Origin: Echinicola jeungdonensis
Lineage (GTDB): Bacteria > Bacteroidota > Bacteroidia > Cytophagales > Cyclobacteriaceae
Reading direction: 5' to 3'
DNA length: 64,000 bases
NCBI RefSeq assembly: GCF_030409905.1
Contig: NZ_JAUFQT010000001.1
Span: forward strand, 1,076,001 to 1,140,000
Within the stretch, counting starts at the first letter, position 1, and the number at the start of each line of letters is the position of its first letter. Positions 50,774 through 54,557 of the stretch are shown here, in pieces. Under the pieces are notes generated by a model. The model saw only the letters and a program-made list of their open reading frames with translations, was not told the origin of the DNA and made no database searches. Made by a program: the position numbers and the translations under genes.

Positions 50774-51002
50774 CAAACTCCTCCTTTGTGTGAAGCATCT
50801 ATTGTCTTTTTGCAGCATCACCGTCAGACATGCCTGTGCCCTTTGCATCCCACTTCTTAAATTTCTTAACGCCAAAACCTGCAAGGCGGAAAAACAACCT
50901 ACTATCCCGATAAATACGCAAAAGTTGATTTTTGAAGTCAACAGTTGACGGTCCACTGTCCACAGCCGTTTTTCGTTTTAAATTTCAGCAATTCGATTAA
51001 TA

Positions 51003-51197
51003 AAGGCGTCACTCCGAGGCTTAGGACAGGATGGAGCGGGGAAAGCCGTGGGAGTCTCGCAATTTGGTCACTGGCCGTTTCTAAGATTATGCCCTAACGG
51101 AAAGGCTGGAATTCTTCTTTTAGAAGGTTCAAATTCTGTATAAAACAAATAGGAATGACATTTAGCAAAATAGATTATATTTCCTTCTTACTTTTTC
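51003..51197. repeat. Direct repeat, first unit (about 190 bp)
   Basis: Begins with CGTCACTCCGAGGCTTAGG, then GAAAGCCGTGGGAGTCTCG, TTCTTTTAGAAGGTTC and TTCTGTATAAAAC, and runs into the CTTACTTTTTC arm of the folded repeat. An imperfect second copy is at 51530-51718. Confidence 0.7.
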
Positions 51198-51424: not shown

Positions 51425-51529
51425 CAAGGGGATTGCGAACAGGAGCTCGGCGGAGTGTATACATTATTCCTACTCTAAAAGGCATCATCAAATATTATTT
51501 ACGTCAATTCGAATAAATTAAAACGTCAC

Positions 51530-51718
51530 TCCGAGGCTTAGGGCTGGATGGAGCGGAGAAAGCCGTGGGAGTCTCGAAATTTGGTTACTGCCCGATTCTA
51601 TGCTTATGTCCAAACCGAAAACCTCTGGAAGGCCTGACATTATTCTTTTAGAAGGTTCCAGTTCTGTATAAAACGAATTGACATTTAAAAAATTAATTAT
51701 ATTGCCTTCTTACTTTTT
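51530..51718. repeat. Direct repeat, second unit, truncated inside a hairpin
   Basis: Second copy of the 51003-51197 unit. It stops exactly after CTTACTTTTTC (51708-51718): the complementary arm present in the full repeat is replaced by ACTTTAGGGCAG. This break is a candidate left edge of the DNA that carries the MazG/helicase operon. Confidence 0.65.
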
Positions 51719-51917: not shown

Positions 51918-52038
51918 AACACCCAAAATTCAATTTATTCTCCTAGGGTAAGTTTTTTTTTAATAAAAAGAATAGAGGTTCATAAACCGCCTTATACCAT
52001 ATGCATTACCGATGTGCTTAATTCTAAACAAGAAAAAT

Positions 52039-52368
52039 ATGAATGATATTAAAGAAATAACAGATGCACTGATTAAGTTCAGGAATGAAAGGGATTGGGA
52101 ACAATTTCATAATCCCAAAGACCTTTCTTTAGGTATCAGCATTGAAGCTGGCGAATTACTTGAGCAGTTTCTTTGGAAAGATTCTCCTAATGCAAATACA
52201 GAAAAGGTCAAGGAGGAGCTTGCAGATGTTTTAGCCTATGCTTTTCTTTTGGCTGAAAAGTATGATTTCGATGTTAAAAAAATTGTACTTGAGAAGATCA
52301 GGAAAAATTCGGAAAAATACCCAGTAGATAAAGCGAAAGGAACAGCTAAGAAGTATAATGAGTTATGA
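52039..52368 (+). CDS. MazG-like nucleotide pyrophosphohydrolase
   Basis: From the ATG at 52039, 109 residues of the all-alpha NTP pyrophosphatase superfamily (MazG/RS21-C6 type). Metal-binding motifs are present: E36-A-G-E39 in SIEAGELLEQF and E60-L-A-D63 in VKEELADVLAYAF. Single-domain members hydrolyse (d)NTPs, often dCTP or modified nucleotides, to the monophosphate. The stop overlaps the next gene's start as ATGA (52365-52368), so the two are translationally coupled. The gene is AT-rich relative to housekeeping genes here. In a defence reading it would deplete or clean nucleotides during attack (inference). Confidence 0.88.
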   Translation: MNDIKEITDALIKFRNERDWEQFHNPKDLSLGISIEAGELLEQFLWKDSPNANTEKVKEELADVLAYAFLLAEKYDFDVKKIVLEKIRKNSEKYPVDKAKGTAKKYNEL

Positions 52369-54557
52369 CGGGGTTTTCAATTCAACATCATACCTTTAAC
52401 ACAGGACTTTTTGATCAGTTAAAAACAGATCACTATGCTAAAAATCTTTGGCCAATCGTTTACATTCTTTCTGATATTAACATTAAGGAGGCTTATGTTG
52501 GCGAAACTACCGACACTTTTGCAAGAATGAATTCTCACCTAAAAAACAAATCAAAGAAAAAACTTACTTCTGTCCACTTAATAGGTAGTCCCAAATTCAA
52601 TAAGTCAGCAACATTGGATATTGAATCCAATCTCATTAAATACATGTCAGGTGACGGTAATTTCCAGCTAATCAATGGGAATTTAGGCCTTGCAAATCAC
52701 AACTACTATCAAAAGCCTGAAGTTTATTGGAATCTCTTCAAATCAATTTGGGATGAGCTCAGGACGGTAGGTTTAGCAAAACATTCTCTGGAGCACATTG
52801 ACAATTCAGATTTATTCAAATATTCTCCCTATAAAAGCTTGCGTAATGAGCAAGTTTACGCATTATACAAGATGTTGGAGAGCATTTTATACGATAAATA
52901 TGAGATTGTCCTTATGGAAGGTGGCGCAGGAACCGGCAAGACTATACTGGCAATTTATCTCTTCAAACTGCTTGCAAAAGACAATGAAGATTTTAACTAT
53001 GGTGATTTTGGTGACCATGAATTCGAATTCTTGAATCTAGTAAAACAGATCAAAAAGAAATACCCTAATCTCAAAATGGGATTTGTCGTACCCATGTCTT
53101 CATTTAGAGGAACAATGAAGCAAGTTTTTAAAAATATTAAAGGTCTCAAAGCAAATATGGTTATTGGGCCGGCCGCAGTCAGTCGTGAAACATTTGATAT
53201 ACTGATAGTTGATGAATCACACCGGCTGAGAAAGAAAAAAAGCATAGGTGCTTACATTGGTGCCTTCAATAAAGCAGCTAAACGATTACAGTTAGACCCT
53301 AATGAAACGAATGAACTTGAATGGGTCACTTTACAATCAAAAAAAACTATACTTTTCTATGATGAGAATCAGTCAATAAAACCTTCCGATGTTAATAAGG
53401 AAGATTTTAAGAAATTAAAAAAGAGCTCAAAAACCACCATTAAAAAACTTAAATCACAATTCAGAGTATTGGGAGGTAATGATTATGTTGATTTTATTGA
53501 CAAATTATTGGGATGTAAATTCCCAAAGGAAGGGAAGAAGTTTAATACTAAAGCTTATGAATTACTTCTGTTTGACTCTGTAAGTGACCTGGTATCCGAG
53601 GTAAAACAACGTGATAATGAATTTGGCCTATCAAGGACTTTAGCTGGTTTTTCATGGGAATGGATTTCCAACAAAGAAGGGCAAAAACATTTTAAAGACA
53701 TTAAGATTGGTGAAACTGAATTAAGATGGAATGCAGTCACTGAGGATTGGATTAACTCTAGTAATGCAGTTAATGAGGTAGAATGTATACATACAACCCA
53801 AGGGTATGACTTAAATTATGCGGGCATCATTTTGGGACATGAGATTTCCTATGATAAGAAAAATGGTAGGATTGTTATTATTAAAGAAAATTACAAGGAT
53901 TCTACAGGAAGACAAGCCGATTCTCCAGAACAATTAAAAGAATACATTGTAAACATCTACAAAACTATGATGCTTAGAGGGATTAAAGGGACATATTTGT
54001 ATGCCTGTGACCCTGACCTGAAGGATTATTTGTCAAAGTTTATCCCATTAAAATTATCTAAACCATCAACTCCAATGGTGGAATTTCTCCAACATGACGA
54101 AGTAATCCCCTTTGAGAATGCTATTCCTGCATATAGACTTGATGTAGCTGCCGGTCAATTTGGTGAAAATCAAAAAGTGGATGAGGTTGATTGGGTAAAA
54201 CCTCCCCAATCTGTGCGGATAACTAAAGACCATTTTGCTTGTAGGATTGTAGGAGAATCTATGAACAAAGTTATTCCAAATGGTTCCTATGTCATTTTTA
54301 AAAAGTATAGCGGAGGCTCGAGAAACGGCAAAATAGTACTTGTTGAACACTCAGACTTACAAGATCCAGAATTTGGTTCATGCTATACCGTAAAAGAATA
54401 TGAAAGCAAAAAACATATAAGTGAGGATGGTTGGAAACATGAATCCATAATTCTAAAACCAATTTCTAATGACGATGGATACGAAAATATTATCCTTTCA
54501 GATGATCAAACTTCGTATTTTAAAGTTATTGGGATTTTTGAATGTGTAATAAAATAG
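52365..54557 (+). CDS. GIY-YIG nuclease / Schlafen-group-3 (DUF2075) helicase / LexA-S24 protease fusion
   Basis: A 730-residue fusion. (1) GIY-YIG domain, about 28-100: VYI at 32-34, YVG at 44-46, Arg54, and a candidate catalytic Glu87 in LDIESNLIKYM. (2) DUF2075/SLFN-g3 helicase, about 150-570: Walker A GGAGTGKT at 186-193, Walker B LIVDESHR with Asp283-Glu284, KLKSQFRVLGG (late helicase motif), and ECIHTTQGYDLNYAGIILG. (3) S24/LexA-like domain, about 590-730: a possible cleavage site Ala596-Gly597 in DVAAGQFGE, Ser632 in VGESMNKVIPNGSYVIF, and Lys677 in YTVKEYES, the Ser/Lys dyad of self-cleaving repressors. There is no helix-turn-helix. Damage or a RecA-like signal could trigger cleavage to release or switch off the nuclease-helicase (inference). 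It is followed by a terminator hairpin. Confidence 0.88.
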   Translation: MTGFSIQHHTFNTGLFDQLKTDHYAKNLWPIVYILSDINIKEAYVGETTDTFARMNSHLKNKSKKKLTSVHLIGSPKFNKSATLDIESNLIKYMSGDGNFQLINGNLGLANHNYYQKPEVYWNLFKSIWDELRTVGLAKHSLEHIDNSDLFKYSPYKSLRNEQVYALYKMLESILYDKYEIVLMEGGAGTGKTILAIYLFKLLAKDNEDFNYGDFGDHEFEFLNLVKQIKKKYPNLKMGFVVPMSSFRGTMKQVFKNIKGLKANMVIGPAAVSRETFDILIVDESHRLRKKKSIGAYIGAFNKAAKRLQLDPNETNELEWVTLQSKKTILFYDENQSIKPSDVNKEDFKKLKKSSKTTIKKLKSQFRVLGGNDYVDFIDKLLGCKFPKEGKKFNTKAYELLLFDSVSDLVSEVKQRDNEFGLSRTLAGFSWEWISNKEGQKHFKDIKIGETELRWNAVTEDWINSSNAVNEVECIHTTQGYDLNYAGIILGHEISYDKKNGRIVIIKENYKDSTGRQADSPEQLKEYIVNIYKTMMLRGIKGTYLYACDPDLKDYLSKFIPLKLSKPSTPMVEFLQHDEVIPFENAIPAYRLDVAAGQFGENQKVDEVDWVKPPQSVRITKDHFACRIVGESMNKVIPNGSYVIFKKYSGGSRNGKIVLVEHSDLQDPEFGSCYTVKEYESKKHISEDGWKHESIILKPISNDDGYENIILSDDQTSYFKVIGIFECVIK

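Follow-up and report, generated by a model that had tools for sequence, protein, structure and literature searches.

The 64,000-nucleotide stretch of the Echinicola jeungdonensis genome analysed here (contig NZ_JAUFQT010000001.1, positions 1,076,001 to 1,140,000; in the following the window) carries a gene pair consisting of mazG and, directly downstream, a gene for a fusion of a GIY-YIG nuclease, an SLFN-g3 helicase and a LexA-like S24 domain (Table 1). The pair is tentatively interpreted as a stand-alone, horizontally spread, methylase-free two-gene restriction-type defence unit, probably type IV-like, in which the S24 domain more likely serves as an off-switch; this reading is preferred among those weighed below, yet held with reserve. 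It builds on a fixed domain architecture, conserved active sites, the constant pairing of the two genes and an S24 module shared with a second kind of nuclease-helicase. A first-pass annotation, made from the letters alone, had proposed a defence or damage-response system: the defence half of this proposal is retained on these tentative terms, whereas a role in damage response or repair appears improbable.

Domain architecture and conserved active sites

A genome scan yielded 73 loci of the fusion, mostly in Bacteroidota (49-79% identity). Conservation was assessed in two sets: the window together with 62 of these loci (63 rows; 11 truncated or frameshifted loci were excluded) and 119 of 120 listed database homologues (one homologue of 648 aa was excluded). 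The residues that had been named as catalytic in the first-pass annotation were indeed present in all 63 fusions, i.e. Y33, Y44, G46, R54 and E87 of the GIY-YIG domain, K192, D283 and E284 of the helicase and the S632/K677 dyad of the S24 domain; the predicted scissile pair was kept in 61 (A596) and 62 (G597) of the 63 rows. All twelve catalytic and cleavage-site positions checked were invariant in the 119 database homologues, and the non-catalytic letters of the GIY-YIG motifs varied slightly (V32 in 62, I34 in 55, V45 in 50 of 63). The conservation of these residues is far beyond chance, and a chance open reading frame (ORF) or a pseudogene is thereby ruled out.

The four expected domains were all matched in Pfam above the curated cut-offs: MazG-like (PF12643, E 1.5e-20) in the upstream protein and GIY-YIG (PF01541, residues 31-68, E 1.6e-5), SLFN-g3_helicase (PF09848, residues 181-549, E 1.2e-62) and Peptidase_S24 (residues 593-681, E 3.4e-8) in the fusion. 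No helix-turn-helix (HTH) was found in the latter by Pfam and the helicase precedes the S24 domain; an ordinary repressor is ruled out, as had been claimed. Structural matches of the helicase domain comprised UvrD, Dda and SLFN11; the structure search, which barely covered the regions outside residues 104-563 and the S24 domain, listed no GIY-YIG chain, and a PDB sequence search with the single fusion gave matches at chance level only. An almost invariant segment, ANHNYYQK, lies within residues 98-180 of the fusion.

A LexA-like fold, the absence of which would have spoken against the first-pass annotation, was found for the S24 domain. Like LexA and UmuD, it possesses a Ser-Lys dyad and an Ala-Gly site 35 residues before the serine; the Ser-Lys distance is 45 residues versus 37 in LexA. 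In contrast to these proteins, the fusion has neither an HTH nor a polymerase role, and its S24 domain is joined behind a helicase. Two members deviate at the cleavage site: locus L046 has lost Ala-Gly and kept Ser and Lys, whereas the Falkowbacteria member (L060:6947-9079) has Cys-Gly at this position. The S24 domain of the latter is much less similar to the rest (23-27% identity; mean identity to the others 27% versus 61% for its helicase), as if the same nuclease-helicase had independently acquired an autoprotease.

The metal-site residues E36, E39, E60 and D63 of MazG (EExxE...D) were retained in all 64 rows. Among solved structures, MazG is closest to dCTP pyrophosphatase 1 (DCTPP1) chains (6sqw_A, E 8.2e-18), with which it has the segments RDWEQFH and WK in common; unlike DCTPP1, it is bacterial and stands in an operon with a nuclease-helicase. 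W20, F23, H24 and W46, invariant in the 64 rows, align with residues 47, 50, 51 and 73 of 6sqw_A, and some of these presumably line the base pocket. DCTPP1 hydrolyses dCTP and C5-modified dCTP in vitro (PMC7162842); by this kinship, modified deoxynucleoside triphosphates (dNTPs) would be the substrate of MazG.

The ATGA overlap previously described between the 109- and the 730-residue ORF is present. Although the mazG frame opens earlier, at 52012, the ATG at 52039 coincides with M1 in 63 of 64 aligned rows. In the 53 loci where both starts could be set, a 4-nt overlap is the commonest arrangement (29 loci); 12 have a 1-nt overlap, and in the remaining 12 the genes are separated by 0-11 nt. 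Promoter and terminator scans gave about as many hits as the shuffled background (14 versus 11.2 and 2 versus 2.0, respectively). Two 108-nt direct repeats, 85% identical (window positions 50996-51103 and 51513-51620), lie in the 1.5 kb 5' of mazG, a stretch in which no clear gene is seen.

Table 1. Features of the mazG/fusion gene pair (window coordinates).
Feature	Position	Strand	Basis
mazG, all-alpha NTP pyrophosphohydrolase of DCTPP1 type, 109 aa	52039..52368	+	Pfam PF12643, 6sqw_A, conserved E36/E39/E60/D63
Fusion gene, 730 aa: GIY-YIG nuclease, SLFN-g3 SF1-type helicase, LexA-like S24	52365..54557	+	
GIY-YIG nuclease domain, ~residues 29-97 (Y33, Y44, G46, R54, E87)	52449..52655	+	Pfam, conservation
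SLFN-g3 helicase domain, residues 181-549 (Walker A 186-193, D283-E284)	52905..54011	+	Pfam, structural matches
LexA/UmuD-like S24 domain, residues 582-730	54108..54554	+	
Predicted self-cleavage site Ala596-Gly597	54150..54155	+	conservation
Ser632, predicted nucleophile	54258..54260	+	conserved 63/63
Lys677, predicted general base	54393..54395	+	conserved 63/63

Gene pairing, distribution and the shared S24 module

The pairing of the two genes is conserved: mazG adjoins the fusion gene in 72 of the 73 loci, always upstream (69 direct matches plus L063, L064 and L067 with a frameshifted fusion; L057 is without mazG). A third constant gene was sought around the pair and not found, the largest other cluster occurring in 5 of 74 loci; the pair is thus free of a cognate methyltransferase, as is characteristic of type IV restriction. 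The divergence of MazG correlates with that of the helicase (Spearman 0.40, 54 rows; a value not reached in any of 200 permutations), yet the domains of the fusion correlate more strongly among themselves (0.79-0.80), so that MazG may have been exchanged at times.

The cluster in 5 of 74 loci encodes a TPR protein (L030:354-2345, L056:7640-9655, L059:8048-9664, L063:2-1618, L052:12210-14195; also listed, L149:1010-3016), the gene of which overlaps or abuts mazG in four cases and is possibly an optional third component; a zinc-peptidase-like HELTH motif is visible in the L056 protein, and another TPR protein is encoded upstream of mazG in genome G209.

The fusion was absent from all 38 relatives searched in addition to the window's own genome, among them 10 congeners. 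An SLFN-g3 gene lacking S24 is present in one congener (G007), likewise downstream of a mazG. In the tree, the window protein pairs only with that of Robiginitalea (L001), and for the five rows labelled Pseudomonadota four changes are needed, against a mean of 4.9 after shuffling. This is compatible with transfer without proving it; the binned genomes concerned may be contaminated. A clean empty site was not readable in the genus: all 11 genomes, counting the own one, have a close match to the flanking rhomboid gene and 8 of the 11 have one to the GH127-like gene (E<=1e-100), but beyond the own genome the two are distant or on separate contigs.

In a sample of 198 Bacteroidota genomes selected without regard to this gene, searched with the window S24 domain (E<=1e-6), this S24 subfamily occurred in nine, each time within a long protein and at the end of a nuclease-helicase. 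Five of these proteins are GIY-YIG-SLFN-g3-S24 fusions encoded directly behind mazG (G000, G050, G067, G106, G215); the other four are PLD-helicases of 1125-1155 aa encoded directly behind an overlapping NUDIX gene (G064, G155, G199, G200). Each kind of S24-armed nuclease-helicase hence has its own nucleotide pyrophosphatase. The representative PLD protein, L006, comprises PLDc, ResIII, DUF3427 and S24 and matches the PADLOC type IV enzyme. Sequence identity between the window S24 domain and its counterparts is 51-52% for L006 and L003 and 43-50% for the four sampled PLD proteins, and the A, G, S and K residues are invariant in 113 of 113 PLD proteins (120 listed, seven short ones excluded): as the S24 domains are alike and the remainder differs, one S24 module has been joined to two different nuclease-helicases.

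SLFN-g3 helicases were detected in 28 of the 198 genomes, with mazG directly upstream in nine, five with S24 and four (G039, G064, G076, G159) with another N-terminal domain that had no Pfam match; in G209 one gene intervenes between mazG and the helicase gene, and in G167 a NUDIX domain is fused to the helicase. A single chain of NUDIX domain and SLFN-g3 helicase, linking pyrophosphatase and helicase, is encoded at L115:1405-3777. MazG of this type was present at 16 places of the sample: nine directly before SLFN-g3, G209, one before a truncated fusion (G102), two beside an HNH protein of 298-300 aa (G039, G129) and three without a recognised neighbour of these kinds (G115, G184, G231). The model of the HNH protein (predicted local distance difference test score 90.3) had VcaM4I as its top Foldseek match (E 3.6e-7), followed by ASCH (PUA-like) proteins (TM to target ~0.6) and the modification-dependent TagI (E 9.8e-5); judged from this model, a VcaM4I-like endonuclease is encoded beside two related mazG genes. 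The NUDIX type was found in 62 of 198 genomes (E<=1e-12), and 14 of 30 tested loci adjoin a PLD-helicase, including the 13 best-scoring ones and one in the window's own genome (L158, L181). Taken together, the mazG and NUDIX units are genomically associated with modification-dependent restriction enzymes. At the own-genome locus (L181:2119-5648), the NUDIX gene overlaps by 1 nt the gene of a 1048-aa SauUSI-like PLD-helicase without this S24 domain.

Proposed function and alternative explanations

LexA and UmuD domains form dimers, and GIY-YIG enzymes usually act as monomers when they nick DNA. According to the restriction reading, the GIY-YIG-SLFN-g3 part would load onto foreign DNA, probably DNA containing non-standard bases, and cut it as an ATP-driven helicase-nuclease, and the DCTPP1-type MazG would hydrolyse the matching modified dNTPs, e.g. 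C5-modified dCTP, and so keep them out of host DNA; the nuclease would not attack its owner, whose DNA would be without modified bases. A further effect of MazG may be to deplete the precursors that modified-base phages need. At RecA filaments the S24 domain, conserved in its chemistry, would cleave itself at Ala596-Gly597 and be cut off from the nuclease-helicase; because of the above dimerisation and monomeric nicking, this would most likely turn the enzyme down, as a built-in restriction alleviation, with switching on as a close alternative. For type I enzymes, proteolysis after damage is a known route of restriction alleviation (PMC12707154).

The defence reading agrees with the fusion's surroundings elsewhere, where the immediate neighbours are rich in defence genes: the nearest ORFs of at least 120 aa per side within 2.5 kb (127 proteins) matched 104 PADLOC families versus 11 for 127 controls, a random draw from 289 ORFs at distances above 5.5 kb, the first figure being inflated by overlapping PADLOC models. 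Besides this inflation of the family counts, several observations weigh against the reading. The window's own neighbours (46-62 kb), which we take from their sequences to be RNase R, polyprenyl synthase, rhomboid and glycoside hydrolases, are unlike a defence island; Pfam revealed no SRA, EVE, YTH or MrcB_N reader in the window fusion. The MazG-helicase correlation is only moderate in comparison with that within the fusion, and 17 of the 28 SLFN-g3 genomes showed neither MazG nor NUDIX fusion in the short flanks read (in 15 of them, other SLFN-g3 proteins of about 610-705 aa). The VcaM4I match has a TM-score of just 0.31-0.32 and a root-mean-square deviation of 19.6 over both domains. Cytosine methylases occur nearby, as DNA cytosine methylase models were matched by 2 of the 127 near neighbours, a motif-level candidate lies directly 3' of the fusion in L058 and a PF00145 gene lies near mazG in G039, which makes a strict 5-methylcytosine target awkward. 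Finally, S24-less relatives exist (Paenibacillus L076, Enterococcus L079, Lactobacillus L080, and L061, whose 562-aa open frame stops just past the helicase, near the predicted released product), and S24 is not essential to the plan.

The same relatives bear on the opposite switch, in which an S24 dimer would hold the full-length protein inactive and RecA-triggered cleavage at 596-597 would free the nuclease-helicase in active form, which would then destroy phage DNA or kill the cell. This alternative, unlikely but the least so of those considered, is favoured by the S24 chemistry conserved in 119 of 119 homologues, by S24-less homologues that are presumably active as they are and by the position of S24 past the helicase, so that cleavage spares residues 1-596. 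However, the L061 frame, close to the product that would be released, is apparently tolerated, and an SOS-triggered nuclease would be expected to kill upon any DNA damage.

Less probable still is a repair or damage-response enzyme, in which MazG or NUDIX would clean the nucleotide pool, the nuclease-helicase would excise misincorporated or damaged DNA and S24 would tie the process to SOS. Such NTP-pyrophosphatases are called house-cleaning enzymes, LexA-like domains belong to SOS, and no defence island is visible around the window copy; the patchy presence (none of 10 congeners, 5 of 198 Bacteroidota genomes), the defence genes that are often next neighbours elsewhere, the parallel system akin to SauUSI and the VcaM4I-like partner speak against it. 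Equally improbable is an S24 domain serving only for dimerisation or docking: some S24 domains are known to stay uncleaved and L046 keeps Ser and Lys without the Ala-Gly site, but scissile pair and dyad are kept both in the fusions (61-63 of 63 and 119 of 119) and in all 113 PLD proteins, and even the divergent Falkowbacteria domain retains Cys-Gly.

Extended to both S24-armed kinds, GIY-YIG-SLFN-g3/MazG and PLD-SauUSI-like/NUDIX, the restriction reading would describe a class of methylase-free restriction enzymes that doubly protects its host, a dNTP pyrophosphatase barring the trigger bases and a LexA-like domain destroying the enzyme upon RecA-reported damage; this generalisation is more doubtful than the reading for the single unit. 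A restriction enzyme that lacks a partner methylase has to spare its host: if true, nucleotide-pool cleaning and RecA-triggered self-cleavage would be two hard-wired answers to self-killing and a new way to make a phage-defence nuclease safe for its owner, SOS would be linked directly to restriction within one polypeptide, and the MazG and NUDIX genes directly upstream of restriction-type helicases would be explained.

Relation to known systems

No named defence system matched the pair exactly among the PADLOC 2023 models, none of which gave a full-length match: the best partial one was Nhi (E 6.7e-11, stretch 273-409), followed by a weak match to AbiO (E 1.1e-7), and that for MazG was Csx1 (E 0.0092). 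Nhi and the other helicase-nuclease systems of PADLOC, matched weakly in part of the helicase, differ from the unit in domains and gene content. Closer are the SauUSI-type enzymes (PLDc-SF2 helicase-DUF3427, PADLOC mREase_IV), likewise single-chain nuclease-helicases without methylase, whose S24-bearing Bacteroidota relatives resemble the fusion in their S24 domain (43-52% identity) and are directly preceded by an NTP-pyrophosphatase gene; the fusion differs by its GIY-YIG nuclease, the SF1-type SLFN-g3 helicase, MazG in place of NUDIX and the DUF3427 not found. MutT genes adjoin SauUSI homologues in Streptococcus (PMC7641849). This adjacency, the component domains and type IV restriction as a kind are already known; new are the S24-armed nuclease-helicase with a DCTPP1-type partner and the same S24 subfamily on two nuclease-helicase kinds. 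In the open PMC literature (subscription papers and preprints lie outside it), no paper on the gene pair or on an S24-fused restriction helicase was recognised. The family is sizeable, with at least 6201 homologues of the fusion at E<=1e-3 among 7999 candidates, whatever their architecture, and the 120 listed homologues bear domain-level names at most (DUF2075, DNA/RNA helicase domain, GIY-YIG endonuclease, LexA repressor).

Bacterial GIY-YIG-SLFN-g3 (DUF2075) proteins without S24 share nuclease and helicase with the fusion at about 24-36% identity; no MazG was found beside L076, L078, L079 and L080, and L076 adjoins an MrcB_N-HNH gene. Genes that we take to be AbiEi/AbiEii-like adjoin the mazG-less Oligoflexus member (L057:4336-5738) and a split Halomonas member (L077:6291-7977). 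A Priestia plasmid (L081:342-4248) carries, one after the other, mutT, an MrcB_N-HNH gene, a gene for MazG and one for an SLFN-g3 protein without S24; restriction-modification genes come next (N-6 methylase, S subunit).
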